DNA of 64,000 bases from positions 62,001-126,000 of the forward strand of contig JASJCI010000024.1 in the NCBI GenBank assembly GCA_030066085.1. The letters run 5' to 3'. Within the stretch, counting starts at the first letter, position 1. Every line of letters begins with the position of its first letter. This stretch comes from Gammaproteobacteria bacterium (GTDB lineage: Bacteria > Pseudomonadota > Gammaproteobacteria > GCA-001735895). Positions 4,036-38,571 of the stretch are shown in pieces. Below the pieces are notes generated by a model. That model was not told the DNA's origin and did no database searches. It saw only the letters and a program-made list of their open reading frames with translations. The translations under genes and the position numbers were made by a program.

Positions 4036-4713
4036 CTAGATGTATTCCCAGCGTTTGAGGTGATTCATGACCTGGTCGGCGAGTCGGGCCGGGTCCTGCG
4101 CCGCCGAATCAAGCACGATGTCCGCGCGTTCGGGAATCTCGTAGTCCGAGTCGATGCCGGTGAAGTTCCTGATCTTGCCGGCACGCGCCAGCTTGTAGAT
4201 ACCTTTCGGGTCGCGCGCTTCGCACAGCGCCAGCGGCGCGTCGACGTAAACCTCGATGAACACTTCGGCGCCGAGCAGTTCGCGCGCCATGCGGCGTTCG
4301 GAGCGAAACGGCGAGATGAAAGATACCAGCGTGATCAGGCCGGCGTCGGCCATCAGGTTGGCGACCTCGCTGACGCGGCGAATGTTTTCGACCCGGTGAT
4401 CGTCGCTGAAGCCGAGATCCTTGTTGAGCCCGTGGCGCACGTTGTCGCCGTCGAGCAGGTAGGTGTGGCGACCGTGTTCGAACAGGCGCTGCTCTACCAG
4501 GTTGGCGACGGTCGACTTGCCCGCGCCGGACAGGCCGGTGAACCAGAGCACGCAGGGGCGCTGCAGTTTTTGTTCGGCACGCTGCAGCCGGTGCAGTTTC
4601 ATTTCGTGCCAGGTCAGGTTATTGCGCTCGGCCGGGTCCCTGTGCTCGCTTGCCAGCCTGGCTGCGCCAACCTGCGGCTGGCGGTCTTCTTCGATGTAAG
4701 CTTCGGTTTCCAT
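4036..4713 (-). CDS. cysC: Adenylylsulfate (APS) kinase
   Basis: Cytoplasmic kinase that phosphorylates APS to PAPS, the sulfuryl donor for sulfotransferases. It is 225 residues long. A P-loop GLSGAGKST lies at residues 60-68, preceded by the usual CVLWFT strand. It is followed by the APS-kinase signatures DGDNVRHGLNKDLGFS, ENIRRVSEVA and SFISPFRSERR, and ends with the typical FTGIDSDYEIPE region. The first ~30 residues are a charged extension. It is the last gene of an operon whose other members are three sulfotransferases and a racemase-like enzyme, 20 bp after a sulfotransferase stop. This suggests a dedicated PAPS supply rather than assimilatory sulfate reduction; no cysD/N/H is nearby. 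Confidence 0.95.
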   Translation of the reverse strand: METEAYIEEDRQPQVGAARLASEHRDPAERNNLTWHEMKLHRLQRAEQKLQRPCVLWFTGLSGAGKSTVANLVEQRLFEHGRHTYLLDGDNVRHGLNKDLGFSDDHRVENIRRVSEVANLMADAGLITLVSFISPFRSERRMARELLGAEVFIEVYVDAPLALCEARDPKGIYKLARAGKIRNFTGIDSDYEIPERADIVLDSAAQDPARLADQVMNHLKRWEYI

Positions 4714-4733
4714 AACAACTCCCCGTTATCGAT

Positions 4734-5474
4734 TCAAACCGCGCCGAGGCGGTGAGCGTAAAGGTGTTCGTAGTGCGGCAGCACGGTCTCGTAAATGGAC
4801 TTGATCTTGTCCGGTGCAGCGGAAATGTCGATGTACCGGCGCGGCTGGGGCTTGAGGCCGTCCGAATCTCGCAGGTTCGCGTGCCAGGAACCGCCGTCGT
4901 ACCAGCTGACCTCGTCGCGGTCGCCGGGCTCCCACGACAGGGCTTCCTCGATGTAGGCGATGCCGACCGCGTTGCAGTAGGCCTCGACCATGCCGAACGG
5001 GTCCTCGAGCAGGTCGTCGCTGTCGATCACCGGCGGCGCATCGCCGAGCCGGTCACAGAGGCGGTCGAACAGCTCGCGCTGTTCGACGAAAGCGACTTCC
5101 TTCAGTTCGAAATCGGGCCAGTGCTTGTACATCGACGTCGTCACCTTGGCCGGATCCCGAATCAGGAAGCTGTGCTTGAAGTGATCGAGAAACTCGTCGC
5201 TCCACAGGTGCTCGATGTAGTGCGGGAAGTCCTTGGAAAACACCGGGCCCTGTGCTGCCGCGGTCAGCAGTTCGTCCCACACGCTGGCGAAGCTCAGGCC
5301 AGTGATGCGTTCGCTGTCGGGACGAATGCGCGGCCAGCGCGCGTCCTCGCCCTTGTACCAGGCTTCGCCGAAAGGTTCGTGGAAACAGGCCAGGTCGCCG
5401 CGCATGCGCATCATCCACTCGAACGCGGTCGAGGTGGAGCGCGGCGTGGCCCACAGAACGAGTATCTTATGCAT
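4734..5474 (-). CDS. Sulfotransferase-family protein (paralogue A)
   Basis: Predicted PAPS-dependent sulfotransferase, 246 residues. It has a 5'-phosphosulfate-loop-like motif at the extreme N-terminus (WATPRSTSTAFEW) and a 3'-phosphate-binding-like motif (SFLIRDPAKVTTS) near residue 100. The start overlaps the end of paralogue B by 8 bp. It is nearly identical to paralogue B over the first 45 residues and clearly related to paralogue C, so the three arose by duplication. The next gene encodes APS kinase, which makes the co-substrate. The acceptor is unknown; proteins of this short soluble type act on small molecules. There is no signal peptide or membrane segment. Confidence 0.85.
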   Translation of the reverse strand: MHKILVLWATPRSTSTAFEWMMRMRGDLACFHEPFGEAWYKGEDARWPRIRPDSERITGLSFASVWDELLTAAAQGPVFSKDFPHYIEHLWSDEFLDHFKHSFLIRDPAKVTTSMYKHWPDFELKEVAFVEQRELFDRLCDRLGDAPPVIDSDDLLEDPFGMVEAYCNAVGIAYIEEALSWEPGDRDEVSWYDGGSWHANLRDSDGLKPQPRRYIDISAAPDKIKSIYETVLPHYEHLYAHRLGAV

Positions 5475-6252
5475 GGGCGGCTGCCTCGGTTGCGGGCTGC
5501 AGGCGATGGGCGTGCAGATGGCGGTAATGCTCGATGAAATCCTGGTACAGGTCCTGCAGGCGCGGCGGCAGCTGGTCGATCGCGACCGGCTTGCGCGGCT
5601 GCGGTTTCAGGCCGTCGGAGTTTTTCAGGGTTTCGTGCCAGATGCTGTCGTCGCCGTCGTACCACAGGACCTCGGCGCGGCTGCCGGGCTCCCAGCTGAG
5701 CGCCTCCGCGATGAACGGAATGCCGACCGCCTCGCAATAGGCCGCCACCATCGTCTGCGGGTCTTCCAGCAGGTCGTCGCTGTCGATGACTACCGGCGCT
5801 GTTCCTGTTTTTTCCCACAGCCGATCGAACAGCGCGCGCTGTTCGTCGAAACCGATTTCGTTGCGCGTGAATCCGACCGTGTCGCCTTTCTTGTCCCAGC
5901 TGCGCTTTAATGATGCCAGCACCTTGGCCGGATCGCGGACCAGGAAACTGTGGCGAAAGCGGTCGAGGAAAGCGTCGCTCCAGAGATGATCGGTAAACTG
6001 CGGCATGTCTTTCGAGAACACGGGTCGCTTCAGCGCGGTATCCTGCAGGCGCTGCAGTACCGAGGCGAAGCTGAGCCCCGGTTTGCGCGGGCTGTCGTCG
6101 TCGAGCCGGGGCGCGCGTGCGTCCTCGCCCTGGTACCAGGCTTCGCCGAAGGGCTCGTGGAAGCAGGCGAGATCGCCACGCATGCGCATCATCCACTCGA
6201 ACGCGGTCGACGTCGAACGCGGCGTGGCCCAGAGTACGATAATGTCGTGCAT
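5467..6252 (-). CDS. Sulfotransferase-family protein (paralogue B)
   Basis: Second of three sulfotransferase paralogues, 261 residues. It has the same N-terminal loop (WATPRSTSTAFEW) and the matching SFLVRDPAKVLAS segment. Compared with paralogue A it has a short insertion around the KKGDTVGF stretch and a longer C-terminal tail. It starts 11 bp after the racemase-like gene stops and overlaps paralogue A by 8 bp, so translation is probably coupled. Retention of three complete copies in one operon argues for different acceptors or for heteromers, which is inference. No residue expected for PAPS binding is obviously lost. Confidence 0.85.
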   Translation of the reverse strand: MHDIIVLWATPRSTSTAFEWMMRMRGDLACFHEPFGEAWYQGEDARAPRLDDDSPRKPGLSFASVLQRLQDTALKRPVFSKDMPQFTDHLWSDAFLDRFRHSFLVRDPAKVLASLKRSWDKKGDTVGFTRNEIGFDEQRALFDRLWEKTGTAPVVIDSDDLLEDPQTMVAAYCEAVGIPFIAEALSWEPGSRAEVLWYDGDDSIWHETLKNSDGLKPQPRKPVAIDQLPPRLQDLYQDFIEHYRHLHAHRLQPATEAAAHA

Positions 6253-6263
6253 CGACGCGATCC

Positions 6264-7082
6264 CTACTGCAACGAGGCCAGCAGCCGGCCCTGTTCGCCA
6301 ACCGGTGCGCTGCCCAGCGTTTTGAAAATACGCCAGTACAGCGCGGTATCGGAGGCGACGATCGGCTTGTCGATCGCGGCCTCGAGCTCGCGCGACAGCG
6401 ATACGAAACGTTGCGGCAGGCCGTCGGCGCGACGGAAATTACACATGCCGTTGGCGACGATGGCATCGACGTCCGGCGCCTGCTCGGCGACGTAGGCCAT
6501 CGATTTCTGCGCCAGATCGCCGTCGAAAATCCAGATACAGTCGTTGCATTCCTGCTGGGTGGCGAAAAAACCCTGGTCGACGAAGTTGCCGGCGTAGACC
6601 AGGTCGAAACCGGCTTCGCGCAGGAAGCGCGCGTAGCCGTCGCGCCAGTCCGGCCAGTAATACACCGAGTTCAGCGCGATGCGTTTGGCGCCCATTTCGC
6701 GCAGCGCCTCGACCACGCAGTAGCCCGCCATGTGAAACGGCGTTTCGTAGCGGTCGCCGATCCGCTTGCAGATATCGTCGATCTCATCGGGGGTCGTACC
6801 CTGGCAATGAACCCAGTTGGTGCCGACCTGGCCGCAGACGTCGGCGCCGTTGTTCGACATGCAGTGCACGAATTCGTCCAGCAGGTGAAAGTTATCGACC
6901 CGCTGCGACAGTTCGTGCGCGTAGTCCGGTACATGCAGCATACGTCCGTGGGCACCGACGTTGTCGGCACTGATGCGCAAAAAGTCGCTCGGCGCGGCGT
7001 CGAAGTCATGCGGCGGCGAGGTAAAGCCCACCTGGTAGGTGAACAGCTTGTTCTTCTGGATTTTCCAGCGTTCCGGTTTCAT
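6264..7082 (-). CDS. Asp/Glu racemase superfamily enzyme (maleate isomerase/arylmalonate decarboxylase-like)
   Basis: Enzyme of 272 residues with the two-cysteine layout of the cofactor-independent racemase/isomerase/decarboxylase superfamily. One cysteine lies in NWVHCQG (about residue 93) and the other in IVANGMCNFR (about residue 214). Between them is the usual ETPFHMAGYCVVEALREMGA segment with the strand KRIALNSVYYW. The C-terminal PIVASDTALYWRIFKTLG matches the maleate isomerase-like ending. It overlaps the upstream sulfotransferase by 4 bp (ATGA), so it belongs to the sulfotransferase operon. It probably acts on a 2-substituted carboxylic acid, perhaps the acceptor or product of sulfotransfer. 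That role is inference; isomerase, racemase and decarboxylase activities cannot be told apart here. Confidence 0.75.
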   Translation of the reverse strand: MKPERWKIQKNKLFTYQVGFTSPPHDFDAAPSDFLRISADNVGAHGRMLHVPDYAHELSQRVDNFHLLDEFVHCMSNNGADVCGQVGTNWVHCQGTTPDEIDDICKRIGDRYETPFHMAGYCVVEALREMGAKRIALNSVYYWPDWRDGYARFLREAGFDLVYAGNFVDQGFFATQQECNDCIWIFDGDLAQKSMAYVAEQAPDVDAIVANGMCNFRRADGLPQRFVSLSRELEAAIDKPIVASDTALYWRIFKTLGSAPVGEQGRLLASLQ

Positions 7083-7828
7083 GCCTGGCCTCCGTCGGCA
7101 ATATCGAGTTTGTATCCTAGCAGGTGCTCGTAGTGTGGCAGCGCTCGCTGGTACAGGTCCACCAGGCGCGGATCGTCTTCCAGCGGCGGGTAGTTGGACT
7201 TTTGCGGCTTGATGCCGGTGCTCTGGCGCAGCGAGTCATGCCAGGGGCCGGTGCCTTCGCCGTACCAGCTGACTTCGTTGCGTTCGCCGGCATCCCATTC
7301 GAGTGCCTCGGGCATGAACTCGATACCGACCGCGTCGCAATAGGCGCGGATGGTTGCGGCCGGGTCAGTCAGCAGGTCGTCGGAGGCCATCACCGGCGGC
7401 GCCTGGCCGCAGCGATCGGCAATGCGATCGAACAGCCGTGCGAGCGATTCGAGCCCGACTTCGTCGAAACTGCAGTCCGGCCAGTGATTGGCCAGGCCCT
7501 GGATCACCTTGTAGGGGTCGCGGATCAGGAAGCTGTGTTGCATCCGGTTGAGCATGTCGTCATCGACGAAATGCTCGATCGAATAGGCAAAGTCCTTGAG
7601 GAACAGGTTGTGTGCGGTGGATTGCGCGACCAGGTCCTGCCACACCGCGGCATAGGTATGCCCGGGCCTGGCGGCAACCTCGGCGTCGCGCTGCGAGCGC
7701 CGGTCCTCGCCGTAGTAAAAGAGTTCGTTGAACGGCTCGTGAAAACAGCGGAAGTCGCCGCGCTGGCGCATCATCCATTCGAACGCGGTCGAGGTCGAAC
7801 GCGGCGTGGCCCACAGGGTCAGGAGCAT
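7079..7828 (-). CDS. Sulfotransferase-family protein (paralogue C, first gene of operon)
   Basis: Most divergent of the three sulfotransferase paralogues, 249 residues, and the promoter-proximal gene. It keeps the loop WATPRSTSTAFEW and the segment SFLIRDPYKVIQG, but differs from A and B in the acceptor half. It starts 186 bp from the divergent LysR gene, so the shared intergenic region should hold the operon promoter. Its stop overlaps the racemase-like gene start (ATGA at 7079-7082). A soluble cytoplasmic enzyme is expected. The acceptor is not identifiable from sequence. Confidence 0.84.
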   Translation of the reverse strand: MLLTLWATPRSTSTAFEWMMRQRGDFRCFHEPFNELFYYGEDRRSQRDAEVAARPGHTYAAVWQDLVAQSTAHNLFLKDFAYSIEHFVDDDMLNRMQHSFLIRDPYKVIQGLANHWPDCSFDEVGLESLARLFDRIADRCGQAPPVMASDDLLTDPAATIRAYCDAVGIEFMPEALEWDAGERNEVSWYGEGTGPWHDSLRQSTGIKPQKSNYPPLEDDPRLVDLYQRALPHYEHLLGYKLDIADGGQA

Positions 7829-8000: not shown

Positions 8001-8016
8001 ATATCAATATTGATAT
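8001..8016. promoter_or_regulatory. 16-bp perfect palindrome over the LysR start (candidate operator)
   Basis: ATATCAATATTGATAT reads the same on both strands, and its right end covers the first two bases of the LysR ATG at 8015. It lies in the 186-bp region between LysR and the sulfotransferase operon. An AT-rich palindrome here, in otherwise GC-rich DNA, is a good candidate for regulator self-binding. The binding protein is inferred. Confidence 0.55.
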
Positions 8017-8929
8017 GTCAGATCGGCGTTATCGCATCCCGTCGACGAGTGCGCTGCAGGCCTTCGAGGCGGCTGCGCGCCAACTGAATTTCAGCCGCGC
8101 CGCGGAAGAGTTGCACACCTCGCAATCGGCGATCAGTCGCCATGTCGCGGCCCTGGAGGCGCGCCTGAATACGAGCCTGTTCGACCGCCGTCGGCGCAAG
8201 CGGCTGGCGTTGACGCAGCAGGGTGAACAGTTCTACCGCGCGGTGGTTGCGGGGCTCGACGGAATCCAGCAGACCATCGAAGCGATTGCCGGCACGCGCG
8301 AGGACGACCAGGTTACTATCGCCTGCACGCACGAGAATTCACACCTGATCCTGCTGCCTCGTTTCGACAGGCTGCAGCAGGCACTCGGCGCCGACAAGAC
8401 CATCCGGGTCATGACCTACGAGTACGACTCGATGCGGCGTGCACTCGATCCACGTGTCGACATCACTATCCAGTACGACGTGGGGCGCACCGATCCCGTC
8501 GATCGCGTGCAGATCGTGCGCGAGGCGATTCGTCCGCTGGTCTCGCCGGCCTTCCTTGCCGCCAATGAAAGCCTGCTGGCGGCGGAGCCATCGGCCTGGC
8601 TCGGGCTGCCGTTTCTCGAGCTGTCGAAGTACAACTTTGGCTGGGCGACCTGGGACGACTGGTTCGAGTCACAGCAACTCGGACCTGCGCGGCCCGAGTA
8701 CCAGTATTTCAACAACTATGTCTACCTGCTCGAAGCCGCGGCCGCCGGCAAGGGTATAGCGCTGGGCTGGCGCGGGTTGATCGAGCGTCACCTGGAAGCG
8801 GGTGTGCTGCGTGAAATCGGGCCGCCTTACGTCGAGTTCGAACGCGCCATCCACGCGGTGCTGACCGACCACGGACGCGGCAAACCGCTCGCGCGACGCT
8901 GCCTCGACTGTCTCGCGCGGCTCGACTAG
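8015..8929 (+). CDS. LysR-family transcriptional regulator (divergent to sulfotransferase operon)
   Basis: DNA-binding regulator of 304 residues. The N-terminal winged helix is clear: LQAFEAAARQLNFSRAAEELHTSQSAISRHVAALEA, read in pieces from residue 12 on, followed by LFDRRRRKRLALTQQG. The rest is a two-lobed effector-binding domain. The ATG at 8015 is used because the upstream in-frame TTG would add residues outside the normal LysR start. It is transcribed away from the sulfotransferase/APS kinase operon, the usual arrangement for a LysR regulator and its target. The effector is unknown; the N-terminal style (PSTSALQAFEAAARQL) resembles the GcvA/AmpR branch. Confidence 0.9.
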   Translation: MSDRRYRIPSTSALQAFEAAARQLNFSRAAEELHTSQSAISRHVAALEARLNTSLFDRRRRKRLALTQQGEQFYRAVVAGLDGIQQTIEAIAGTREDDQVTIACTHENSHLILLPRFDRLQQALGADKTIRVMTYEYDSMRRALDPRVDITIQYDVGRTDPVDRVQIVREAIRPLVSPAFLAANESLLAAEPSAWLGLPFLELSKYNFGWATWDDWFESQQLGPARPEYQYFNNYVYLLEAAAAGKGIALGWRGLIERHLEAGVLREIGPPYVEFERAIHAVLTDHGRGKPLARRCLDCLARLD

Positions 8930-9379: not shown

Positions 9380-9709
9380 TCATTTATCGCGTGTATTACC
9401 GTAGTCGCGCTCGACCAGCGCTATTCGGGTGCAGTAATTGCGGTACCAGCGGCCCTTGCCCTGGCGCTTTGCCTCGCGGTGTTCGGCATGCGATTTCCAG
9501 CGTTTTATCGATTCGAGATCGCGCCAGTAGGACACCGTGATACCGAGCTCCCTGCGCGCCGATTCGACCCCGAGATAGCCGGGTTGCCCGGCGGCGAGTT
9601 CGAGCATGCGTTCGGCGGTTGCGGCATAACCGTCGAGATCGTCGGAGTGCAGCGAGGTGAAAATGACCGCGTAGTACGGCGGATCGGGCGTTTGCGCAAT
9701 TTTGCTCAT
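9380..9709 (-). CDS. Antibiotic biosynthesis monooxygenase (ABM) domain protein
   Basis: Protein of 109 residues with a dimeric alpha/beta-barrel ABM fold: YYAVIFTSLHSDDLDGYAA, then a helix, GYLGVESARRELGITVSYWRD and LESIKRWKSHAEHREAK. These are the family landmarks, including the SYWRDLESIKRW helix. The ATG at 9709 lies 8 bp after the HAD gene stop, so it is the last gene of the operon that also encodes the DMSP-lyase-like cupin. ABM proteins include quinol oxygenases, haem-degrading enzymes and many of unknown role. Confidence 0.82.
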   Translation of the reverse strand: MSKIAQTPDPPYYAVIFTSLHSDDLDGYAATAERMLELAAGQPGYLGVESARRELGITVSYWRDLESIKRWKSHAEHREAKRQGKGRWYRNYCTRIALVERDYGNTRDK

Positions 9710-9717
9710 GGTCGCGC

Positions 9718-10422
9718 TTAGCAGCCGAGCTGTTCGGCGAGGTGGATAATGCTGGTATTGTGCAGCGAATTCGCGTCCCACGGCGCGGTGTTTTTCGCTT
9801 CATCACGGCCGTATTCCCAGGGTCGTTCGATATAGGCGGTTTCGAGCCCGCAGTTGCGTGCCGCCTCGAGGTCACCGTGATGCGCGGCGGCCAGCATGAC
9901 TTCGCCCGGGTCCACTTCGAAGGTACGCGCCACGCCGCGGTAGGTATCCGGGTGCGGCTTGTACTTGTTGAAGGTTTCCGCGCACAGGATTACGTCCCAG
10001 GGCAGGCCGGCGTGCTTGGCCATATCGGCCAGCAGACCGATGTTGCCGTTCGACAGGGAACTGATCATGAACTTCGATTTCAACCGCGTCAGCCCCTCGA
10101 CGCTGTCGGGCCAGGGGTCGAGCCGGTGCCAGGCGCGATTCAGGTGGTGACGTGTTGCCTCGTCCATGTCATCGAGGCCGAAGTCGGCCAGCACGCGGTC
10201 GAGAATCCGCCGGTGCAGCACGTCGAGAATGACCCATTCGCCGCGTTGCATGACCTCGGCCATGGCCGGCTGGTAACCCGCGCGCCAGGCCAGCGCAAAC
10301 TCGCCACCGTCGACCCCGAGGTTCATGGCCTCGACTTCGCGTTTGACCGATCCGTGCCAGTCGACCACGGTACCGAAGACGTCGAAGGCGATGACCTTGA
10401 CGCGCTCGCGTAATTCCGTCAT
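9718..10422 (-). CDS. HAD-family (S)-2-haloacid dehalogenase-like hydrolase
   Basis: HAD hydrolase of 234 residues in the haloacid dehalogenase type II group. Motif I has the nucleophile Asp in AFDVFGTVVDWHG. Motif II Ser is in ISSLSNGN. The Lys of motif III is in KYKPHPDTYRG, and motif IV is AAHHGDLEAARNCG. The AAHHGD form and the DVFGTVVDW opening favour dehalogenases over phosphatases. It overlaps the FKBP gene by one base and belongs to the DMSP-lyase operon. Whether the substrate is a halogenated acid or another 2-substituted acid cannot be read. Confidence 0.85.
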   Translation of the reverse strand: MTELRERVKVIAFDVFGTVVDWHGSVKREVEAMNLGVDGGEFALAWRAGYQPAMAEVMQRGEWVILDVLHRRILDRVLADFGLDDMDEATRHHLNRAWHRLDPWPDSVEGLTRLKSKFMISSLSNGNIGLLADMAKHAGLPWDVILCAETFNKYKPHPDTYRGVARTFEVDPGEVMLAAAHHGDLEAARNCGLETAYIERPWEYGRDEAKNTAPWDANSLHNTSIIHLAEQLGC

Positions 10423-10814
10423 CAGTGTTCCTCCTCCAGCAGGATGCGTTCCTCGATAAACTCGATGTCGGCGACGATGACCGCGTCGCGCGGTATCCCG
10501 GGCGGCAATCCCGTTTCGCCGTAAGCGAGATGTGGCGATATCTTCAGCTTGCGTCGGCCGCCGATGCGCATGCCCTCGATGCCCTGGTAAAGTCCCGCGA
10601 ACAGGCTTTCGCGGTCGATACGCAGGTCGGTGATCAGCGTGGCGCCGTCATCTTCCAGGCGGGCCCGGTCGATGAAGCCGCAGGGTTGATCCCAGCGCAG
10701 CGGGTCGCCGTTGTTGAGCCACAGCTTCAGTCGCAGGCGATAGATGCGGCCGCGTTCGACGATCTCGCCCGCGCCGACCTCTTCCTCGATCAGTTTTACT
10801 CCGGGTCGTTTCAT
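10422..10814 (-). CDS. FKBP-type peptidyl-prolyl isomerase-like protein
   Basis: Soluble protein of 130 residues with a divergent FKBP domain. The core landmarks are in the second half: GLYQGIEGMRIGGRRKLKISPHLAYGETGLP followed by GIPRDAVIVADIEFIE, matching the flap and final strands of FKBPs. The first half is less typical and lacks the usual aromatic GWE motif. It overlaps the cupin gene by 4 bp and the dehalogenase gene by 1 bp, so it is translated within the same operon. A folding role for an operon partner or a non-catalytic role are both possible. Confidence 0.82.
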   Translation of the reverse strand: MKRPGVKLIEEEVGAGEIVERGRIYRLRLKLWLNNGDPLRWDQPCGFIDRARLEDDGATLITDLRIDRESLFAGLYQGIEGMRIGGRRKLKISPHLAYGETGLPPGIPRDAVIVADIEFIEERILLEEEH

Positions 10815-11410
10815 GCAAAAGTCGAGGTTTGGCGCAGGTCACCGGCCTGCCAGAGATAGAAAATTACCATGATGTCGTCAGTCGTGCTGAATCCATGCGG
10901 TTGCCCCGGTGCGATATATACCACATCGCCGCTGACGCGGCGCGTGGCGGATTCGTCGCCGACGCGAAAGTCGGCGCCACCGGCCAGCACCGCGTATATT
11001 TCCTCGGCCTGGTGACGATGGCGCGGATACTCGATCCCCGGACCGATGATGCTGATACCGGCGCGAATGCGCTCGCTGACGAATGGCCCCAGCTTGCCGA
11101 CCACCTCGGTAAAGCCATAGCCATCGAGCATGGCCTCCGGCACCAGGCGCTGCGCGCGGGTGTAGCTCTGCTCCCAGCGCAAGTTGCGGTAATGCCTTGC
11201 GAATGGCACCAGCATCGGCGCGCAGTCGGCGCGCTGCACCACCTGGTCGAGGCGCTCGGCCGCCGGCAGGTGCTCGGCTTTTACGTCGATCCAGTCGTTG
11301 CCCCAGTCGCGCATCGCCGGCTTGAACCGTTCGATCTCGGGCGCGGGGTGCGACAGGGTGAAAGCGCGCACCGCGTCGAGCAGCTCCAGGTCGTGCAGGC
11401 GAACGCTCAC
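10811..11410 (-). CDS. Cupin DMSP-lyase (dimethylpropiothetin dethiomethylase) family protein
   Basis: Predicted enzyme cleaving dimethylsulfoniopropionate to dimethyl sulfide and acrylate, 199 residues. The C-terminal cupin has the family metal motif YPRHRHQAEEIY (His131, His133, Glu137, with Tyr139) and the later ligand in PGQPHGF (His172), ending in the strand FYLWQAGD. The N-terminal helical half and the RAGISIIGPGIEYP approach also fit the DddQ/DddL/DddW group. GTG at 11410 is used: it overlaps the exporter stop (GTGA) and removes a long arginine-rich artefact extension. It sits in an operon with exporter, FKBP, HAD and ABM genes. Activity is not certain, since the family includes members with other substrates. 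Confidence 0.78.
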   Translation of the reverse strand: MSVRLHDLELLDAVRAFTLSHPAPEIERFKPAMRDWGNDWIDVKAEHLPAAERLDQVVQRADCAPMLVPFARHYRNLRWEQSYTRAQRLVPEAMLDGYGFTEVVGKLGPFVSERIRAGISIIGPGIEYPRHRHQAEEIYAVLAGGADFRVGDESATRRVSGDVVYIAPGQPHGFSTTDDIMVIFYLWQAGDLRQTSTFA

Positions 11411-12045
11411 AGCACCCCCCGCGCCTTGAATATCAGCGCCATGCCGACCGCGAACATGATCGACGCGGCGAGCAGGTTGATGCCGCGGATCGCGGTCGTG
11501 TTCTGCAATAGAATGCTCGCGCGACCCGCCAGCCAGGCATAGACGAGCTTGGCGCCGCCGACCCCGATTGCGGCGATCACGACGATGGTCAGCGTATCGG
11601 CCGGCGTCATTTGCGCGAGATCGATGAAGGCCGGGAAAAACCCGAGGTAAAACAGGATCGCCTTCTGGTCGGCCAGCGTGATCAGCAGGCCGGCGAGAAA
11701 ACTCGACGACCAGGTCGATTCGCGCACCCGCTCGGTTTTCCCGGCGCGTGCCTCGGCGCGCCACAGCGTCACCCCGAGCCAGATCAGGTAAACCCCGCCG
11801 ATATACTGAATCCAGGTAAACTGCTCGCCCATCATCCCGGCGATGACCGCCAGCCCGTAAACCGCGATCAGGATGAAGATGATGTCGCCGACCACGATCC
11901 CCAGCGAGGCGAAAAAACCGTGGCTGAAGCCGAAGGCGGCGGCGCGCGCGGTCACCGTCAGCACGCTGACGCCGGGGATGATCGCCAGTACGATCATCGT
12001 GCCCAGCAGCGCGACGATGCTGGCGAGGGTTAAGGTGGATTCCAG
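11407..12045 (-). CDS. LysE/RhtB-family exporter (probable CTG start)
   Basis: Inner-membrane exporter with about six membrane segments; the family exports amino acids and related small molecules. The family hallmark (AIIPGVSVLTVTARAAAFGF, then GDIIFILIAV) is present. The only ATG (11997) lies inside the first membrane helix and has no ribosome binding site. Sixteen codons upstream, in frame, a CTG (12045) is preceded by GGAGG nine bases away, and starting there gives a complete first helix, so I chose it. The stop overlaps the DMSP-lyase-like gene by 4 bp. Export of a product of that operon is a reasonable inference. Confidence 0.8.
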   Translation of the reverse strand: MESTLTLASIVALLGTMIVLAIIPGVSVLTVTARAAAFGFSHGFFASLGIVVGDIIFILIAVYGLAVIAGMMGEQFTWIQYIGGVYLIWLGVTLWRAEARAGKTERVRESTWSSSFLAGLLITLADQKAILFYLGFFPAFIDLAQMTPADTLTIVVIAAIGVGGAKLVYAWLAGRASILLQNTTAIRGINLLAASIMFAVGMALIFKARGVL

Positions 12046-12067: not shown

Positions 12068-12262
12068 TCAGTCCGTGCGGTGCATATCCCGGCCGCAGCA
12101 TATCGGTGACGTGATCCTGCCGTGGCTGCCCGGGTATTGTGCCAGGGCTACTTCGCGACCGTCATCAGGGGTGACAATACCCTGCACGATCCCCTTGCTG
12201 CCGCTGCCGCGGGTCATCGGGCCGAGGTTCATGCCACGGACCTTGCAGCGATATACCGCCAT
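12068..12262 (-). CDS. Small Cys-containing protein of unknown function
   Basis: Short gene of 64 codons supported mainly by a strong ribosome binding site (GGGGGAGGAACC) six to seven bases before the ATG at 12262. The product starts MAVYRCKVRGMN and ends SPICCGRDMHRTD, with three cysteines near the two ends, which could bind a metal. I do not recognise a family. It lies between the nitronate monooxygenase gene and the exporter operon on the same strand, 22 bp before the exporter's CTG start, so it could be the first gene of that operon. Confidence 0.55.
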   Translation of the reverse strand: MAVYRCKVRGMNLGPMTRGSGSKGIVQGIVTPDDGREVALAQYPGSHGRITSPICCGRDMHRTD

Positions 12263-12326: not shown

Positions 12327-13370
12327 TTACAGTTGTGCCGCCAGCGAACGCAACAACTCGGCCGCCGGGATCGCTCGACAGCCGCTTGCATTCTGACCGC
12401 ACCACAGCGAAGTGAAATCGCTGCTGCCCCGCGCTTCGGCGGCGCTGCGCAGCGGTGCCAGCGCCCTGGAAGCCAGCGGAAACGGCACCACGTCGTCGCT
12501 GATCGGTCCAAGGTCGCGCATGATGCGATTGACGATGCCGCGCGCCGGCCGGCCGGAGAAAAGGTTGGTCAGCGCCGTGTGGGCGGCGCCGGGCGATGTC
12601 AGCGCCTCGCGGTGCAGCGGAGCGGTGGTCGCTTCGTCGCACAGCAGGAAAGCGGTGCCGACCTGTACCGCGCTGGCGCCAAGGTCGAGCGCGGCCCCGA
12701 CGCCGGCCGCGTCAGAGATGCCGCCGGCGGCGATAACGGGCAGGTCGACCGCGGCGACGATCTGCGGCAGCAGCGCAAGGGTACCGACCTGGGTGGTAAT
12801 GTCTTCACCCAGGAACATGCCGCGGTGACCGCCGGCCTCGAGGCCCTGGGCAATGATCGCATCGACTCCGCGCGCTTCGAGCCAGCGCGCTTCCGCGACC
12901 GTGGTGGCGCTGCAGAGAATCCTGGCGCCCGTGGCCCTGACGCCCTGCAGCAGGTCATCGGCCGGTAAGCCGAAGTGAAAGCTGACCACGGGCGGTTCGA
13001 ATTCCCGCAGAATTTCGAGCGCCTCTTCACCGAACGGTGCGCGGTCCTCGGCCTCCGGGACCTCGCCCGGATCGAGCCCGAATTCGGTGTAGTAGGGCGC
13101 CAGTGCATTTTGCCAGGCGGCGTTCCGCGCGGCGTCTTCGACCGGCGGTCGGTGGCAGAAGAAATTGATGTTGTAAGGCCTGTCGGTAGCCGACGTGATG
13201 AGCGCGAGCTGGTCGCGAATTTCCTGCATGCCGAGCATGGCGCAGGGCAGCGAACCGAGACCGCCGGCAGCGGACACCGCGATGGCGAGCGCGCTTGTTT
13301 GCACGCCGGCCATCGGTGCCTGGATGATCGGCAGCTCGATATCGATCAGGGTCTGTAATTCACTGGACAC
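12327..13370 (-). CDS. Nitronate monooxygenase (2-nitropropane dioxygenase family)
   Basis: FMN-dependent TIM-barrel enzyme of 347 residues. Landmarks are LPIIQAPMAGVQTSALAIAVSAAGGLG at the start, QGLEAGGHRGMF with the catalytic His, and the FMN phosphate-binding LPVIAAGGISDAAGV and GASAVQVGTAFLLCDE. The family oxidises propionate 3-nitronate and other alkyl nitronates, protecting against them or using them as nitrogen sources. It is followed 64 bp downstream by the small Cys protein gene. The family assignment is strong and length is normal. Confidence 0.92.
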   Translation of the reverse strand: MSSELQTLIDIELPIIQAPMAGVQTSALAIAVSAAGGLGSLPCAMLGMQEIRDQLALITSATDRPYNINFFCHRPPVEDAARNAAWQNALAPYYTEFGLDPGEVPEAEDRAPFGEEALEILREFEPPVVSFHFGLPADDLLQGVRATGARILCSATTVAEARWLEARGVDAIIAQGLEAGGHRGMFLGEDITTQVGTLALLPQIVAAVDLPVIAAGGISDAAGVGAALDLGASAVQVGTAFLLCDEATTAPLHREALTSPGAAHTALTNLFSGRPARGIVNRIMRDLGPISDDVVPFPLASRALAPLRSAAEARGSSDFTSLWCGQNASGCRAIPAAELLRSLAAQL

Positions 13371-15789: not shown

Positions 15790-17208
15790 TCAGTTGCGCC
15801 TGGCGTCCGGGTCCTGGCCCGCGAAGCTGGAAAACAGCCCGGTGAGATCGGGTCTCGTTCGCAGTGTCAATGCCGCGTCGATCATCGCGTCGGCTTCGCC
15901 CGTATTCCGGTCACTGGTATCGCGAAAATGCCGATAACAGTCGCCAAACTTGGCGATGTAGCGCTCACGATCGAGATCGCGTCCCGGAGCGCCGGTATAG
16001 ACGGGCACCGCGGCGCGCGCGCTGCGGCCGTCGGCCAGGCGAAGCTCGACAACGTCGGGGTCTTCCGGATCGAAGTTGAGCTCGGGCCGTCGCGTGACCC
16101 GGCCGTCGACGCGGATGAAGCCGGCCAGCTCTCGAATTTCTTCGCGCCGCACCGCCTCATCGGAAAAGTCCTCGATACGATTGCCACCGGTTGCGAGCGC
16201 GGTGGCAATACAGAAGGGTGCGCTGAACAGCGCTTCGGTGCGATCTCGCGGTACACCGTAGGGCAGTACCGCGAGATGAAAGTCCGGCAGCGAAGCGGTT
16301 ACGCTCTCGATCTGGCTAATGTCTTGCAGGCCGAGTTCGGCGCGCACCGCCAGCGCGGCGTCGACCACGCGGTGTGCATAGCCGCAGGAAGGATAGACCT
16401 TGGCGCCGAGGCCGTGTTCCTCGATGCCCCAGGGAGCTCCCAGTTTTGCCGTGGCCCCGCTGAAGTCCGCCTCACCCTCGGGCACCAGCAGGGACGCGAA
16501 GCTGACCGGGCCATCGAGCGCGGCGACCTGTCCCGTCGCACCGGCGGCGCCGAGGCTTGCGGCCAGCAGGCCCGCCTTGGCCGCGAAGCCCGCGTGCAGC
16601 GGCTTGCCCGAGGTACCGAACTGGCTGACGTAGCCCGAGCCGAGCGAAGTGGTCAGCGATAGGGCTGCGGCGGTCTGTGCCGTATCCAGCCGGCGCAGGC
16701 GGCAGACAGCCGCGCTTGCGCCGAGGCTGTCGAGAGTGCTCGTGGTATGCCAGCCAAGCTTGTAATGGCCCATGTTGACGGCTTCACCGAGGCGGAAGAT
16801 GACTTCGAGCCCGACCAGGTAAGCGTCGAGCAGATCCATGCCGCTGAGCTCCCGCTCGTGTCCGCAGCAGGCGGCCAGCAGCGCCGGCAGCATGACCGCA
16901 CTCGGGTGGTCGTTGGCGATGAAGGTGAAGTCGTCGAGGTCGAGTGCGTGCGCGGCGGCGCCATTGGCCATCGCCGCCCACGGCGGCGGCAGGCATTGGC
17001 CGCTGCCGAACACCGGTGCGCTGCCGTCACCCCAGCCGTCGGCCGCGCGGCGCGCGACACGGGCAACTTCAGACTCGGCCCCGAGCAGGGTGCAGCCGAG
17101 CGTATCGAGTACGGCAAATTCGGCACGCTCGAGCGCGGACGCGGGATGCCGTTCGCGTGCTGTCGTGCAGACGAAGTCGGCAAACTGCTGCACTGCGGTC
17201 CCGGTCAT
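15790..17208 (-). CDS. MmgE/PrpD-family protein
   Basis: Protein of 472 residues in the 2-methylcitrate dehydratase/cis-aconitate decarboxylase superfamily. Landmarks are AMANGAAAHALDLDDF with the following NDHPSAVMLPALLA, and GWHTTSTLDSLGASAAVCRL, KPLHAGFAAKAGLLAA and the C-terminal lid. It is the last gene of the MttB operon, only 4 bp after the OYE-like gene stops. Members act on carboxylic acids by dehydration, decarboxylation or isomerisation; several operon homologues have no known substrate. Here it probably handles a carbon skeleton left after demethylation, which is inference. Confidence 0.88.
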   Translation of the reverse strand: MTGTAVQQFADFVCTTARERHPASALERAEFAVLDTLGCTLLGAESEVARVARRAADGWGDGSAPVFGSGQCLPPPWAAMANGAAAHALDLDDFTFIANDHPSAVMLPALLAACCGHERELSGMDLLDAYLVGLEVIFRLGEAVNMGHYKLGWHTTSTLDSLGASAAVCRLRRLDTAQTAAALSLTTSLGSGYVSQFGTSGKPLHAGFAAKAGLLAASLGAAGATGQVAALDGPVSFASLLVPEGEADFSGATAKLGAPWGIEEHGLGAKVYPSCGYAHRVVDAALAVRAELGLQDISQIESVTASLPDFHLAVLPYGVPRDRTEALFSAPFCIATALATGGNRIEDFSDEAVRREEIRELAGFIRVDGRVTRRPELNFDPEDPDVVELRLADGRSARAAVPVYTGAPGRDLDRERYIAKFGDCYRHFRDTSDRNTGEADAMIDAALTLRTRPDLTGLFSSFAGQDPDARRN

Positions 17209-17212
17209 GGCT

Positions 17213-19252
17213 TCAGATCACCCGGCACAGGCGATTGGCGTCGAGGATGGCGGCGTGGATGTCGCGCGCGGACAGCGCGTCGCCGATGCGAAACAGCTGG
17301 AATCGGCCGTCGGGATTGGCGTCCCGTGGCTGCGGCTGCAGCGCGACCAGCGCCTCGTGGTTGTACTCGCCGAAGTTGGTGGATGCATCGACGAGATCAT
17401 GAAACAGGTCGTCCAGCGATTCGGTGCCGAGATCGGTGATGACGACATCGGCGGTCACGTCCTCCTGGCTGCGCGCAAACGCGTGTCGCAGGCGGGCCGA
17501 CAGCCGTCCCTGTTCGCTGCGCAAACCGGTTAACGCGCGGTCCGTCAGGATGGTCCCGCCCTGGTTGTGCAGGTTGCGCAGGTAAACCGGGTAGTTTTGT
17601 CCGCCGAGCCCGCGACCGGCCTGGCGATCGGGGGTCACCAGGGTAACGGCGCCACCGGCCGCGGACAGGCGGTCGGCCAGCGACAGCGCGCAGTGCGCGC
17701 CGACCGCATCGTAGACCAGGATATCGCCTGCGGGCAGCTCATCACCGGCGAGCGCGTCCCAGGCATTCAACGCGAGTTCGCCGCCGCCGTCCGGCAGCTG
17801 CTCGCGCGGCAGGCCGCCGGTGGCGACGATGATCACGTCGGCATCGAATTCCGCCAGGTCGCCGGCCTCGATGTAACGATTCAGGTGCACCCGCACGTCG
17901 AGGCGTTCGACCTCGGCCACCAGCCAGTCGGCGACGCCGACGATGTCCTTGCGCCAGCCGCCCATCGCCGCGATCCGGATTTGGCCGCCGAGCTGCGGCG
18001 TGGCTTCGCACAGGTCGACCTGGTGGCCGCGCAGTGCAAGCACGCGCGCGGCCTCGAGGCCGGCCGGGCCGCCGCCGACGACGACACAGCGCAGGCCTTG
18101 TTCCGCGGCTTCGATCGCGTGCGGCAGCTGTGTCTCCCGGCCGGTGGAAACATTGTGCTGGCACAGGGTATCGCGACCGGCGTAAATCCGGTCGAGGCAG
18201 TAACCGGCGCCGACGCAGGGGCGGATACGATCCTCGTCGCCGCGCTCGATCTTGATTACCAGCTCGGGATCGGCGATCAGCGGCCGCGTCATGCCGGCCA
18301 TGTCGACGCAGCCGTTGGCGATCGCCCAGTCGGCGGTGGCCGGGTCCGACAGCCGTGCCGATTGAAACACGGGCAGGCCGGTCGCTTCTCGCACCCGGCG
18401 CGCGAGCTCGACATAGGGTGCACTCGGAAACGCCATGCCGGGCATGTACTCGCTGACGCCCATGTCGGTGCCGCTGTAGGCGCCGTTGACGTTGATGATG
18501 TCGACGCAGCCCTGGCGCGCGACCAGCTCGGCGATGGCGACGCCCTCGTCGGCGTCGATACCGCTCTCGTTGCTCTCGTCGCCGTTGTAGCGCAGGCTGA
18601 TAATGAACTCGTCGCCGACGCGCTCACGGCAGGCCTCGAGCGTCTCGAGCAGGAAACGCGCGCGGTTTTCTAGTGGACCGCCGTAAGTATCGTCGCGGAA
18701 ATTCGACAGCGGCGACAGGAACTGGCCGAGGATGTGCGAACTGGCGATGATTTCGACGCCGTCGAGCCCGCCTTCGCGGCAGCGCCACGCGGCATCGGCG
18801 AAGTCGCTGGTGATGCGTGCGATTTCCCGCGTCGAGATGGCATACGGCGACGAGTGGTGCGCCGGGTCGCGCACCGCCGACGGCCCCTTGGTCGGCAGCC
18901 AGTCGCCGGCATCGGCCACCGTGCGCCGGCCCATGTGCGTGATCTGGCACATCAACCCGGTATCGAGCGCGTGCATACGTTCGGCAAACTCGCGGAACAC
19001 CGGCACGACGCGGTCGTCGCCGACGTAGATCTGGCCGTAGATCGAACCCGAGTCGCGGCTGATATTCGACGAGCCGCCGAACATCGTGAGTCCTACGCCG
19101 CCGCGCGCCTTGGCTTCGTGGTATGCCTGGTAGCGTTCGCCCGGCAGGCCGGCTTCGGCGTAACCGGGCGCGTGCGCAGCGGAGAACACGCGGTTGCGGA
19201 AGGTTTTGCCCTTGATCGTTATCGGCGACATCAGGTGGCGGTAAGCGCTCAT
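17213..19252 (-). CDS. OYE-like NADH:flavin oxidoreductase with Fe-S and FAD domains (N-methyl amine demethylase type)
   Basis: Multidomain flavoenzyme of 679 residues. Residues 1-335 form an FMN-binding OYE barrel. A cysteine cluster follows (Cys346, Cys352, Cys364 in CVGAGYC and TLCQHN). From about residue 387 a dinucleotide domain starts with CVVVGGGPAGLEAA. This is the layout of trimethylamine dehydrogenase, dienoyl-CoA reductase and N-methylproline demethylase. Dienoyl-CoA reductase-type clusters have four cysteines; only three are seen. The ATG at 19252 overlaps the HD gene stop (ATGA), and the longer arginine-rich extension is rejected. Neighbours suggest oxidative demethylation of an N-methyl amine, with electrons passed through the Fe-S centre. 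Confidence 0.88.
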   Translation of the reverse strand: MSAYRHLMSPITIKGKTFRNRVFSAAHAPGYAEAGLPGERYQAYHEAKARGGVGLTMFGGSSNISRDSGSIYGQIYVGDDRVVPVFREFAERMHALDTGLMCQITHMGRRTVADAGDWLPTKGPSAVRDPAHHSSPYAISTREIARITSDFADAAWRCREGGLDGVEIIASSHILGQFLSPLSNFRDDTYGGPLENRARFLLETLEACRERVGDEFIISLRYNGDESNESGIDADEGVAIAELVARQGCVDIINVNGAYSGTDMGVSEYMPGMAFPSAPYVELARRVREATGLPVFQSARLSDPATADWAIANGCVDMAGMTRPLIADPELVIKIERGDEDRIRPCVGAGYCLDRIYAGRDTLCQHNVSTGRETQLPHAIEAAEQGLRCVVVGGGPAGLEAARVLALRGHQVDLCEATPQLGGQIRIAAMGGWRKDIVGVADWLVAEVERLDVRVHLNRYIEAGDLAEFDADVIIVATGGLPREQLPDGGGELALNAWDALAGDELPAGDILVYDAVGAHCALSLADRLSAAGGAVTLVTPDRQAGRGLGGQNYPVYLRNLHNQGGTILTDRALTGLRSEQGRLSARLRHAFARSQEDVTADVVITDLGTESLDDLFHDLVDASTNFGEYNHEALVALQPQPRDANPDGRFQLFRIGDALSARDIHAAILDANRLCRVI

Positions 19253-19872
19253 GCGGCGGCTCGCTGCCGCGCCAGCGCGGGGTTTTGCAGTGGTTCGCGT
19301 GCGCCGGCGCGCACGACCGCTGCGTGGTTCGGTTTGCGCGCGAACACCTCGCGCAGCAGCGGTTCGAAAAACTCGAGCGATTCGTCGGCGTAATCCGGAT
19401 CGAAGCTGCACTGGTCCCAGCGTTCGCAAAACGCCGCGCAATCGTCGAAGTAGGGATGATCGCGCCACTGGTCACGCGCGTTACGGTCGGCGCCGACCAG
19501 GTGACCGTAAAAGTAGAGCTGAAAGGTCGTGTGGTACGCCACGCTCCAGCTGCATTGCTCGCGCACGAAGGGTTTGAGAATGGCAGCCGGCAGCAGGCCG
19601 TCGCTGAACGGCGCGAGGTGATCGCCGAGATCGTGCAGCAGCGCCGCGATCACCCAGTCGGTATCGGCACCGTCGCGCCAGGCGCGCGTGGCCGCCTGCA
19701 GCGAATGCCGGCGGCGGTCCACCTGGTAGCCGGTTTCGAAACGTTCGAGCTCGTCGAACATCGCCAGGATCCGGTCGGCGAGCGTGGCAGCATTGCGCTG
19801 GTGCAGTTTCACCAGTAGCGCGTAATCTTCGGCGGTTCCGTGTTGCATCTCGGTAAAGCTGACGACCTGCAT
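19249..19872 (-). CDS. HD-domain protein (possible diiron oxygenase or phosphohydrolase)
   Basis: Soluble protein of 207 residues with an HD motif: His56 in RRRHSLQAA, His80-Asp81 in ALLHDLGDHLAP, then His114, His124 and acidic residues near SFDPDYAD. The 24-residue spacing from the first His to the HD pair matches that known for the HD diiron oxygenase PhnZ, but later spacings differ. It opens with VSFTEMQHGTAEDYALL and carries RDHPYFDDCAAFCERWDQ, both apparently characteristic of its own subfamily. It sits between FAD and FMN amine-type oxidoreductase genes. I call the fold with confidence and the activity not at all. Confidence 0.75.
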   Translation of the reverse strand: MQVVSFTEMQHGTAEDYALLVKLHQRNAATLADRILAMFDELERFETGYQVDRRRHSLQAATRAWRDGADTDWVIAALLHDLGDHLAPFSDGLLPAAILKPFVREQCSWSVAYHTTFQLYFYGHLVGADRNARDQWRDHPYFDDCAAFCERWDQCSFDPDYADESLEFFEPLLREVFARKPNHAAVVRAGAREPLQNPALARQRAAA

Positions 19873-19899
19873 GCTGTGAATCCTCCAGTCCTTTCCCGG

Positions 19900-34465: not shown

Positions 34466-34843
34466 TCAGGCCGGGCTGTCGTCGATATCCTGGTAAGCCG
34501 AAGGGTCGAATCGCGGCGAGCAGATGGCGAGAAACACGAGATCCTCCGGGCCCGGGTTGTGAATGCGCTGGCGACACAGCGGCGGTATCAGCACGACATC
34601 TCCGGGGTAAACGGTCTGTGAGTCGAGATCGCCGATTTCGACCCTGCCACTGCCCGCGAGGATGACGTACCGCTCGACAGTATCCGCCAGCCGATGCCAG
34701 CGGGTGGTGCGGCCGGCTTCGAGCCGGGCGCGCGCGATCGACAGCGACGGGTCCGCGGCCGAATTGGAAAGCTCGGTAATGAAGCAGCCTTCGCTGAAAA
34801 AATACTCCCGGCTCAGGTCCTGGGGTTTGATCGAGGGGCGCAT
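34466..34843 (-). CDS. Cupin-domain protein
   Basis: Small cupin of 125 residues. Motif 1 is partly degenerate (RWHRLADTVERYVILAG, with His and Glu), and motif 2 is PGDVVLIPPLCRQRIHNPG with the His ligand shifted. ATG 34843 is supported by AGGAA nine bases upstream; ATG 34873 is also in frame. The protein begins RPSIKPQDLSREYFFSEGC, a form seen in small mannose-isomerase-like cupins. Its role is unknown. Confidence 0.82.
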   Translation of the reverse strand: MRPSIKPQDLSREYFFSEGCFITELSNSAADPSLSIARARLEAGRTTRWHRLADTVERYVILAGSGRVEIGDLDSQTVYPGDVVLIPPLCRQRIHNPGPEDLVFLAICSPRFDPSAYQDIDDSPA

Positions 34844-37392: not shown

Positions 37393-38571
37393 ATGTCGGT
37401 AAAACAAAGCACGACCTCGCGGGATCTCGCCCTTCAACTGGCGGAGATCTCCGGCGATGCCGACGTATCGCCCGGCATTCCGCCGGCCTGTTACGCCGAC
37501 GATGGCCTCGTCCCGGTCGAACGCGGGGCAATCTTCCGTGATGGCTGGATCGGCCTGGGACTGGCTGACCGGTGGCGCGCCGCCGGCGATTACAGCGCTT
37601 TCGATCTTGCTGGCGTGCCCGTCATCGTCGTGCGCGACAGGGCCGGTGAGCTGCGCGCCTACGCCAACAGCTGCCGCCACCGCGGCAGCGCGCTGCTCGC
37701 GGGTAACGGCAACTGCAAGCGTATCAAGTGCCCGTTTCACTGGTGGACCTACGACCTCGACGGGCGGCTCAAGATATACCCGCGCATGGAAAACGCGCGC
37801 AATTTCGATCCGGCCGACTATGGCCTGGTGGAATTCCCGCTTGCCTGCCGGCATGGCCTCGCTTTCGTATCGCTGGCGCCGCAAACGCCGTCGATCGACG
37901 ACTGGCTGGGTGATTTCGATCGCTGGCACGCACCCTGGCGGCTCGACGACCTGGTGGCCACGCGCGTGCGCGAGTTCACCGTCGACTGTAACTGGAAAAC
38001 CTTCCTCGAGGTTTTCAACGAGTACTACCATCTGCCAGCGGTGCATCCCGATTCGATCAGCTGGATGTACCCGGAACCCGACCCGATCGACGACAGCTCC
38101 GGTGCCTTCGCCACCCAGTTTGGTGAGACTACCGCCGCGTCGGCGCTGCTCGAGGATTCGCAGGCGGCAGCCTTGCCGGTCGCCGCCGGTCTCGACGGGC
38201 GCCTGCGCCTGGGGACGCGTTACACGTGGATTTTCCCGAACCTGACCTTTGCCGCGTCGCAGGATTCGCTGTGGATGTACTCGGCGCTGCCGCTGGCGGC
38301 CGATCGCTGCAGCGTTACCCAGACCGTCGCGTTCCCGGCCGCTTCGCTCGAACTCGACGATTTCGATGTGCGCACGGAGCATTATTACCAGCGTATCGAC
38401 GCCGCGCTGGCGGAGGATCTGCCGTTTTTACTCGAGCAGCAGCGCGGGCTCGATTCACCGTTCGCGCAACCCGGGCGTTTCGGCCGGCTCGAGCCCTCGG
38501 TGGCGCGCTTCGCCGCCTGGTATGCGCCGCGCCTGCTGGCCGGGCTCGACACGGCGGCGCGGCAAGCCTGA
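37393..38571 (+). CDS. Rieske non-haem iron oxygenase, alpha subunit (choline/carnitine monooxygenase-like)
   Basis: Oxygenase subunit of 392 residues. The Rieske [2Fe-2S] ligands are Cys94, His96, Cys113 and His116 (CRHRGS and CPFHWWTYDLDG). The catalytic domain contains FLEVFNEYYHLPAVHPDSI with two iron-binding His (about 213 and 218). The compact C-terminal form is like the choline, carnitine and glycine betaine monooxygenase group. No reductase gene is adjacent, so electrons must come from elsewhere. It stands alone between katG (divergent) and the HDOD gene (convergent). Given the MttB operon nearby, a quaternary-ammonium substrate is plausible but not shown. Confidence 0.88.
   Translation: MSVKQSTTSRDLALQLAEISGDADVSPGIPPACYADDGLVPVERGAIFRDGWIGLGLADRWRAAGDYSAFDLAGVPVIVVRDRAGELRAYANSCRHRGSALLAGNGNCKRIKCPFHWWTYDLDGRLKIYPRMENARNFDPADYGLVEFPLACRHGLAFVSLAPQTPSIDDWLGDFDRWHAPWRLDDLVATRVREFTVDCNWKTFLEVFNEYYHLPAVHPDSISWMYPEPDPIDDSSGAFATQFGETTAASALLEDSQAAALPVAAGLDGRLRLGTRYTWIFPNLTFAASQDSLWMYSALPLAADRCSVTQTVAFPAASLELDDFDVRTEHYYQRIDAALAEDLPFLLEQQRGLDSPFAQPGRFGRLEPSVARFAAWYAPRLLAGLDTAARQA

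Follow-up and report, generated by a model that had tools for sequence, protein, structure and literature searches.

The 64,000-nucleotide stretch analysed here (contig JASJCI010000024.1, positions 62,001 to 126,000; hereafter the window, with position 1 as its first letter) contains a cupin gene whose product belongs to the family of dimethylsulfoniopropionate (DMSP) lyases and lyase-like proteins (DLL), is closest to the lyase DddQ and stands in a clade separate from it. The gene lies in a conserved run with genes for a LysE/RhtB-type exporter, an FKBP-like protein, a haloacid-dehalogenase-like hydrolase (HAD) and an ABM-fold protein (Table 1). Not far from it is a gene pair for an arylmalonate-decarboxylase (AMDase)-like and a sulfotransferase-family protein (ST1), which also accompanies DddQ-type cupins in some Rhodobacteraceae. 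This common AMDase-like/ST neighbourhood is the most useful new fact and suggests, on the basis of linkage, that the window clade shares an onium-carboxylate or betaine pathway with some dddQ clusters. We tentatively favour the view that the cupin is a metal-dependent β-eliminating lyase in such a pathway, acting on DMSP or a betaine-like compound, an assignment that falls just short of probable; cleavage of DMSP itself is possible.

By profile score the cupin is a member of the DMSP_lyase family PF16867, and DddQ chains are its best sequence matches in the PDB. Its AlphaFold model (mean pLDDT 74) finds its best fold match, over the whole chain, in DddQ 4la2 (VIA Z 21.9, 182 residues, 2.3 Å), with lower scores for DddY (Z 14.5) and DddK (Z about 11). 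The membership in a DMSP-lyase family proposed by the sequence-only reading, an annotation made without database searches, is thus borne out by the profile match, the DddQ fold and DddQ as the nearest proven relatives. Y120, H123, H125, E129, Y131 and H163 are reported as essential residues of DddQ (PMC4437653); they correspond to Y128, H131, H133, E137, Y139 and H172 of the cupin, whose W187 matches DddQ W178. None of these seven positions varies among the 21 aligned members of the window cupin clade.

This clade of 21 rows has a support of 100/100 in a 74-row tree. Fourteen rows come from the window and its genus; the remaining seven represent other Gammaproteobacteria, Filomicrobium, Kiloniellaceae and Hyphomicrobiales. 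The DddQ clade (28 rows, 100/99), which includes the three solved DddQ, joins the window clade at 96/80, and the DddL rows form a distant clade (100/99) outside of which the window cupin is found. Relatives were taken from the best 80 of 266; besides the A1 rows, 14 of the 80 contig-derived loci were added to the trees. The 74-row tree, from which 13 distant or long-branched rows of the first tree (L113–L117, L124, L126 and L136–L141) are omitted, agrees with that 62-row tree. Based on its own fully supported clade beside that of DddQ, the window cupin is therefore classified from sequence as DddQ-like, but neither as DddQ nor as DddL, the sister placement to DddQ being provisional. The cupin did not fall far from the proven lyases in the tree, an outcome that the sequence-only reading had named, along with a lack of DMS release, as speaking against it. 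Although the DLL family itself is already known, the clade next to DddQ is, by these sequence comparisons, new; no description of it was found in the literature, with most subscription papers outside reach.

The five genes of the run lie where the sequence-only reading had placed them, and each matches its Pfam family above the curated cut-off. The tight coupling described there is likewise present: LysE and cupin overlap by 4 bp, cupin and FKBP by 4 bp, FKBP and HAD by 1 bp, and ABM follows after a gap of 8 bp. The run is more than a chance arrangement, because 16 genomes of the genus, with the window genome counted, have the identical gene order. The gene start of LysE at 12045 is a CTG preceded by GGAGG, and the first ATG occurs at 11997. 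The co-directional run probably starts earlier than LysE, with the genes for a nitronate monooxygenase (NMO)/FabK-like flavoprotein and a 64-aa protein, which are separated from each other by 64 bp and from LysE by 22 bp and are both retained in several relatives. The Pfam FKBP_C match of the FKBP-like protein is confined to profile positions 37–93 of 94. The HAD has its nearest solved structures in 3umg/3umc, followed by cis-epoxysuccinate hydrolase. Classical L-2-haloacid dehalogenases carry a nucleophilic Asp, a halide-site Arg, Lys and Asn; D14, T18, R47, N125 and K155 of the HAD are invariant in 12 aligned rows, and a histidine, H181, occupies the second Asn position of the classical enzymes, which is also the case in the aligned 3umg and 8wmt.

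The distribution of the run is narrow. Among 39 relatives searched, the cupin was found in 13, each of which is among the 24 searched genomes that belong to the window's genus, and in a class sample of 274 genomes cupin relatives at E ≤ 1e-20 occur in two, the window genome counted. The HAD is present in 24 of 31 genus genomes: in 16 the cupin adjoins, two (G276, G679) possess LysE, FKBP and HAD without cupin, two loci are ended by a contig edge, and four have a diverged HAD (62–66%) and no cupin in the stretch fetched. A search of the class sample detected the FKBP-like protein only in the window's own genome (one of 274), hence in no other genus. A widespread run is therefore rejected, and HAD, LysE, FKBP and ABM do not form a general partner set, given the restricted FKBP and the two copies lacking the cupin. 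The genus loci L169 and L170, in which LysE is present together with FKBP and HAD and the cupin is missing from between the first two, are natural copies without cupin that lend themselves to comparison. A simple codon-usage script supplied the gene calls of the loci, which are approximate and were poor for AT-rich loci (e.g. L047, L174, L177, L229).

Beyond ABM, the window continues with a cold-shock gene and a LysR gene in divergent orientation, after which comes a second run: ST3, the AMDase-like gene, ST2, ST1 and adenylylsulfate (APS) kinase. The conserved neighbourhood extends to 4734, outside the span treated by the sequence-only reading. In 10 of the 16 genus cupin loci the AMDase-like gene is located 2.7–4.4 kb from the cupin; where it is near the cupin its product is 83–91% identical within the genus, versus 51–61% for the cupin. 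The window departs from most genus relatives read, which have only one of the STs at this place, in that three ST paralogues and APS kinase surround a single AMDase-like gene (4036–7828). An orthologue of the glycine-betaine-monooxygenase (GbcA)-like Rieske protein is found 5.6–10.3 kb from HAD in nine genus loci and 28 kb away in the window. ST1, ST2 and ST3 score above the Pfam Sulfotransfer_5 cut-off, and no PDB relative of ST1 was detected by sequence at E ≤ 1.

For the AMDase-like protein (model pLDDT 88), Foldseek returned 4ix1 as best match, followed by 2vlb, 3dtv and 2xed; 4ix1 is an uncharacterised Rhodococcus protein and the next matches are arylmalonate decarboxylase and maleate isomerase. 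It shares the fold with this group but not a conserved cysteine region (NGM[C/P/S]N). Arylmalonate decarboxylase depends on a conserved catalytic cysteine, the position compared being C214; in 16 orthologues residue 214 is C, P or S and the only invariant cysteine is C105 (the genes of L255 and L256, called short, were excluded from this residue alignment). Therefore, neither arylmalonate decarboxylase nor maleate isomerase chemistry is to be assumed, and "arylmalonate decarboxylase" was rejected as the function of 6264–7082, which also misses the NCBIfam equivalog cut-off (27.4 of 225). The aspartate racemase superfamily also holds the algal DMSP lyase Alma1 (PMC5395565, PMC10686828).

The link to dddQ emerged from 198 genomes, one per genus, whose assignment to the Rhodobacteraceae is inferred from their DddQ and DddL contents. 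In seven of 12 DddQ-type loci (L224, L225, L227, L228, L230, L231 and the short contig L235) a recurrent cluster surrounds the cupin, composed in whole or part of genes for an RpiR regulator, a Rieske oxygenase, an FAD+GcvT protein, a medium-chain (MDR) dehydrogenase, the cupin, enolase-superfamily proteins and a class III aminotransferase. In the two AMDase-bearing clusters from which the family names were taken (the NCBIfam ones below equivalog cut-offs), the Rieske protein is GbcA-like, the FAD protein combines DAO and GCV_T, the enolases are nearest to cis-3-hydroxyproline dehydratase and an aldehyde dehydrogenase resembles betaine aldehyde dehydrogenase (BADH).

At the edge of one such DddQ cluster lies an orthologue of the window AMDase-like gene. 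Orthologues occur in 12 of the 198 genomes, ten of them at 57–67% identity; the count includes G708 (33%, one stop) and G839 (a fragment), whose surroundings are not among the loci read. A DddQ-type cupin is present in 9 of the 12 AMDase-positive and in 26 of the 186 other genomes (Fisher p 9.7e-6, no phylogenetic correction). Downstream of the AMDase-like gene, in the same orientation, comes a relative of ST1 (56–62%) in all ten loci read. Four genomes (G871, G805, G754, G867) combine the pair and a DddQ-type cupin in a single cluster, at a distance of 3–9 kb, and in G871 within one co-directional run; in G778 the cluster is present and the contig stops where the cupin is expected, and G846 has the cluster with no cupin in the part that was read. 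As in the window, the pair in L253 is flanked by a divergent LysR gene, which is 40% identical to the one in the window. The DddQ clusters with the AMDase-ST pair look betaine-catabolic. No report of an AMDase-ST-DddQ linkage was found in the literature on DLL neighbourhoods, dddQ operons and AMDase-sulfotransferase clusters, with most subscription papers outside reach.

In analogy to DddQ, H133, E137 and H172 (and Y139) of the cupin would hold a divalent metal, which would bind the carboxylate of the substrate, while Y139 or Y128 might take the α-proton. The β-onium group, dimethyl sulfide (DMS) or the amine of a betaine, would then leave and an unsaturated acid remain. The cupin might act within a larger onium-carboxylate or betaine-type catabolic set including the AMDase-like/ST pair (4734–7828) and the GbcA-like Rieske demethylase, a set that could parallel the dddQ clusters of Rhodobacteraceae; LysE would presumably export, and HAD and ABM process, its products. 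As a broader and rather speculative scenario, which we consider improbable though worth stating, DddQ-type cupins, AMDase-like protein and ST might constitute one undescribed catabolic pathway for onium/betaine osmolytes in two proteobacterial classes. DMSP cleavage by DddQ would be a by-activity in this scenario, the main substrate a pathway intermediate, and the window would represent the gammaproteobacterial version, equipped with an exporter and a HAD hydrolase of its own. DddQ has a high Km for DMSP (22 mM; PMC5395565).

Several observations weigh against the assignment of the cupin to an onium-carboxylate or betaine pathway. The AMDase pair was not seen near the cupin in 6 of the 16 genus loci, of which four are on contigs that end first and two (G277, G295) show other genes, and a genome-wide search of the six genomes found an AMDase-like gene only in G284, on another contig. 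Co-occurrence of the two genes within the genus is weak (9 genomes with both, 4 with cupin only, 2 with AMDase only and 9 with neither; p = 0.019, uncorrected for phylogeny or gaps in metagenome-assembled genomes), the table covering 24 genomes to the exclusion of the seven genus genomes G679–G685. None of the dddQ clusters read contains a counterpart of HAD, FKBP or ABM, and the window Rieske protein is only 25–32% identical to those of the clusters. In the approximately unbiased (AU) test, a tree that places the window clade with the Mesorhizobium DLLs rather than with DddQ is not rejected (p 0.365). Two recognisable copies of the run (G276, G679) and the G846 cluster lack the cupin; hence it is accessory, and the run a genus-level assembly with an accessory cupin. 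Finally, the seven active-site positions are also invariant in the DddL clade, in 11 Mesorhizobium-type cupins, in a Gemmobacter cupin and in the genome's second family member. Being invariant in every lyase-like group aligned, they mark the family and do not predict DMSP cleavage, and were rejected as proof of it. The metal and tyrosine residues of the DddQ/DddL group noted in the sequence-only reading are thus all present, but not specific to DMSP lyases. No residue separating proven lyases from the rest was recognised in the alignment despite differences in the substrate pocket.

A true DMSP lyase, functionally equivalent to DddQ, would have the cleavage of DMSP into DMS and acrylate as its physiological function and leave acrylate to an unlinked AcuI; this is conceivable, and we regard it as unlikely. 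DddQ as nearest proven relatives and two BCCT transporters in the window genome argue for it, as does the 97% decrease of DMS upon loss of DddQ in R. pomeroyi (PMC5395565). An AcuI-family gene above cut-off exists in 26 of 31 genus genomes, including the window genome, where it lies on another contig (C1), unlinked to the cupin. However, AcuI is equally present in genomes without cupin, and was rejected as support for a DMSP role. The separate clade and neighbours that are not known DMSP genes also argue against a true DMSP lyase, and the DLL cupin family of Lei et al. (2018) reportedly includes members of unknown function. The sequence-only reading had contrasted the window with known ddd loci carrying acrylate-handling genes, a generalisation that fails for DddQ, the nearest relative. 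According to PMC3338564, no bacterium known at the time had an acuI-like gene close to dddQ or dddW, and dddQ was linked to a different MDR gene; among the loci read here a close AcuI within 1.5 kb occurs in 0 of 25 of the DddQ clade (with one weak 27% MDR-type match) and in 3 of 9 of the DddL clade. The lack of acrylate genes was accordingly rejected as a peculiarity of the window and is normal for dddQ.

The surroundings of the cupin outside the genus point in another direction. In three of the seven distinct clade loci read there, the cupin instead adjoins genes of aromatic or acyl-CoA type, which counts against an onium-carboxylate role: in L029 (a Chromatiales metagenome-assembled genome, also encountered as L045) the cupin stands behind an acyl-CoA dehydrogenase, a benzoate-CoA ligase family gene (382.6 bits, cut-off 375.25) and RidA, and an extradiol-dioxygenase-like gene (L046) or an HMG-CoA-lyase-like gene (L049) follows it in the others. 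Together with a more distant Gemmobacter cupin in a CoA-ligase/enoyl-CoA hydratase operon, and with NMO, ABM and HAD which would fit, this might indicate an isomerase, hydrolase or lyase acting on a ring-cleavage or CoA-pathway product. We consider such a role in aromatic or acyl-CoA acid catabolism quite improbable, since the remaining loci L047, L048, L050 and L051 have nothing of the kind near the cupin and no such genes adjoin it in the window's genus. The run might alternatively detoxify small reactive halo-, nitro- or epoxy-acids, with hydrolysis by HAD, elimination by the cupin, oxidation of nitronates by NMO and export by LysE. The HAD, above the type II cut-off and next to haloacid dehalogenases and cis-epoxysuccinate hydrolases, and the upstream NMO are compatible with this idea, but there is no direct link to such substrates, the asparagine of the classical enzymes is replaced by H181, and the AMDase-ST linkage is left unexplained; we thus judge it very unlikely. 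As a whole, the sequence-only interpretation is partly supported: the DLL family membership is upheld, along with the DddQ fold and active-site residues now recognised, and no support was obtained for a diagnostic value of those residues, for the acrylate contrast or for a general partner set.

Table 1. Genes of the cupin run and its wider neighbourhood (window positions; scores in bits, cut-offs in brackets)
Feature	Position	Strand	Remarks
APS kinase	4036..4713	-	would supply 3'-phosphoadenylylsulfate (PAPS)
ST1, sulfotransferase family (PF19798)	4734..5474	-	conserved partner of the AMDase-like gene 6264-7082
ST2, sulfotransferase-family paralogue	5467..6252	-	
AMDase-like protein	6264..7082	-	Asp/Glu racemase superfamily fold
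ST3, sulfotransferase-family paralogue	7079..7828	-	
LysR regulator	8015..8929	+	divergent from ST3-AMDase-ST2-ST1
ABM (antibiotic biosynthesis monooxygenase-fold) protein	9380..9709	-	Pfam ABM 34.2 (23.1)
HAD, type II haloacid-dehalogenase-like hydrolase	9718..10422	-	Pfam 51.8 (26.4); NCBIfam TIGR01428 168.7 (125.4)
Divergent FKBP-like protein	10422..10814	-	Pfam FKBP_C 44.9 (21.1)
Cupin	10811..11410	-	GTG start, 199 aa; PF16867 DMSP_lyase 75.5 (27)
LysE/RhtB-type exporter	11407..12045	-	Pfam LysE 106.7 (25.6)
64-aa protein, putative upstream member of the run	12068..12262	-	weak desulfoferrodoxin-N match, below cut-off
NMO/FabK-like flavoprotein, putative first gene of the run	12327..13370	-	
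GbcA-like Rieske protein	37393..38571	+	

Further genes deserve mention in their own right. About 2–9 kb from the run, the window carries genes for an MttB-family methyltransferase, an FAD amino-acid oxidase-like, an old-yellow-enzyme (OYE)-type and a 472-aa protein (15790–22726), the last (15790–17208) appearing MmgE/PrpD-like by eye; the group suggests methylamine- or betaine-type catabolism. A 125-aa gene (34466–34843), whose relatives in L168 and L169 match the cupin weakly (31–32%, E 2e-5 to 8e-5), possibly encodes a single-domain cupin and is conserved about 4–5 kb from the run in relatives. A second DMSP_lyase-family cupin of the same genome (L001 1453–2811, G000:C46:115068–115499; 99.4 bits) is separated by about 60 bp from a gene for an 801-aa FAD+GcvT protein, a proximity that speaks for the onium-carboxylate or betaine reading; a Sulfotransfer_5 gene and a sulfatase lie nearby on the opposite strand. 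More remote family members include a cupin on a Gemmobacter fulvus plasmid (L112, 5803–6486) in an operon for CoA-ligase, enoyl-CoA hydratase, CoA-transferase, ABC transporter and nitronate monooxygenase, and the Mesorhizobium cupins of L053–L110. The latter adjoin a cobyric-acid-synthase-like gene and an acyl-CoA dehydrogenase whose best NCBIfam model, below cut-off, is acryloyl-CoA reductase, and in some of these loci genes for MttB and FAD+GcvT proteins occur no further than 10 kb away.

The AMDase-like/ST pair accompanies DddQ-type cupins in Rhodobacteraceae and the neighbouring clade in one gammaproteobacterial genus, and so offers a defined choice of candidate substrates and gene deletions for experiments. 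Should DMSP turn out not to be the main substrate, metagenome counts of DMS producers resting on dddQ-like genes would need care.

Compared to the solved DddQ of Ruegeria lacuscaerulensis (4la2), R. pomeroyi (5cu1) and Roseovarius nubinhibens (4b29), the window cupin shares the fold over the full chain and all checked metal, tyrosine and tryptophan positions, despite an identity of 21–24% in the structural alignment. Conserved differences between its clade and DddQ include Y185 for V, Q188 for R, M94 for F and G118 for Y/F. With the DLL family (PF16867) at large it has the active-site set in common. With DddL of the acuR-acuI-dddL operons it has family and residues in common, but the DddL clade is distant and neither acuR nor acuI adjoins the cupin in the window run. 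The operon partners differ from those of DddQ, whereas the AMDase-ST neighbourhood is common to the window cupin and to DddQ in some Rhodobacteraceae.

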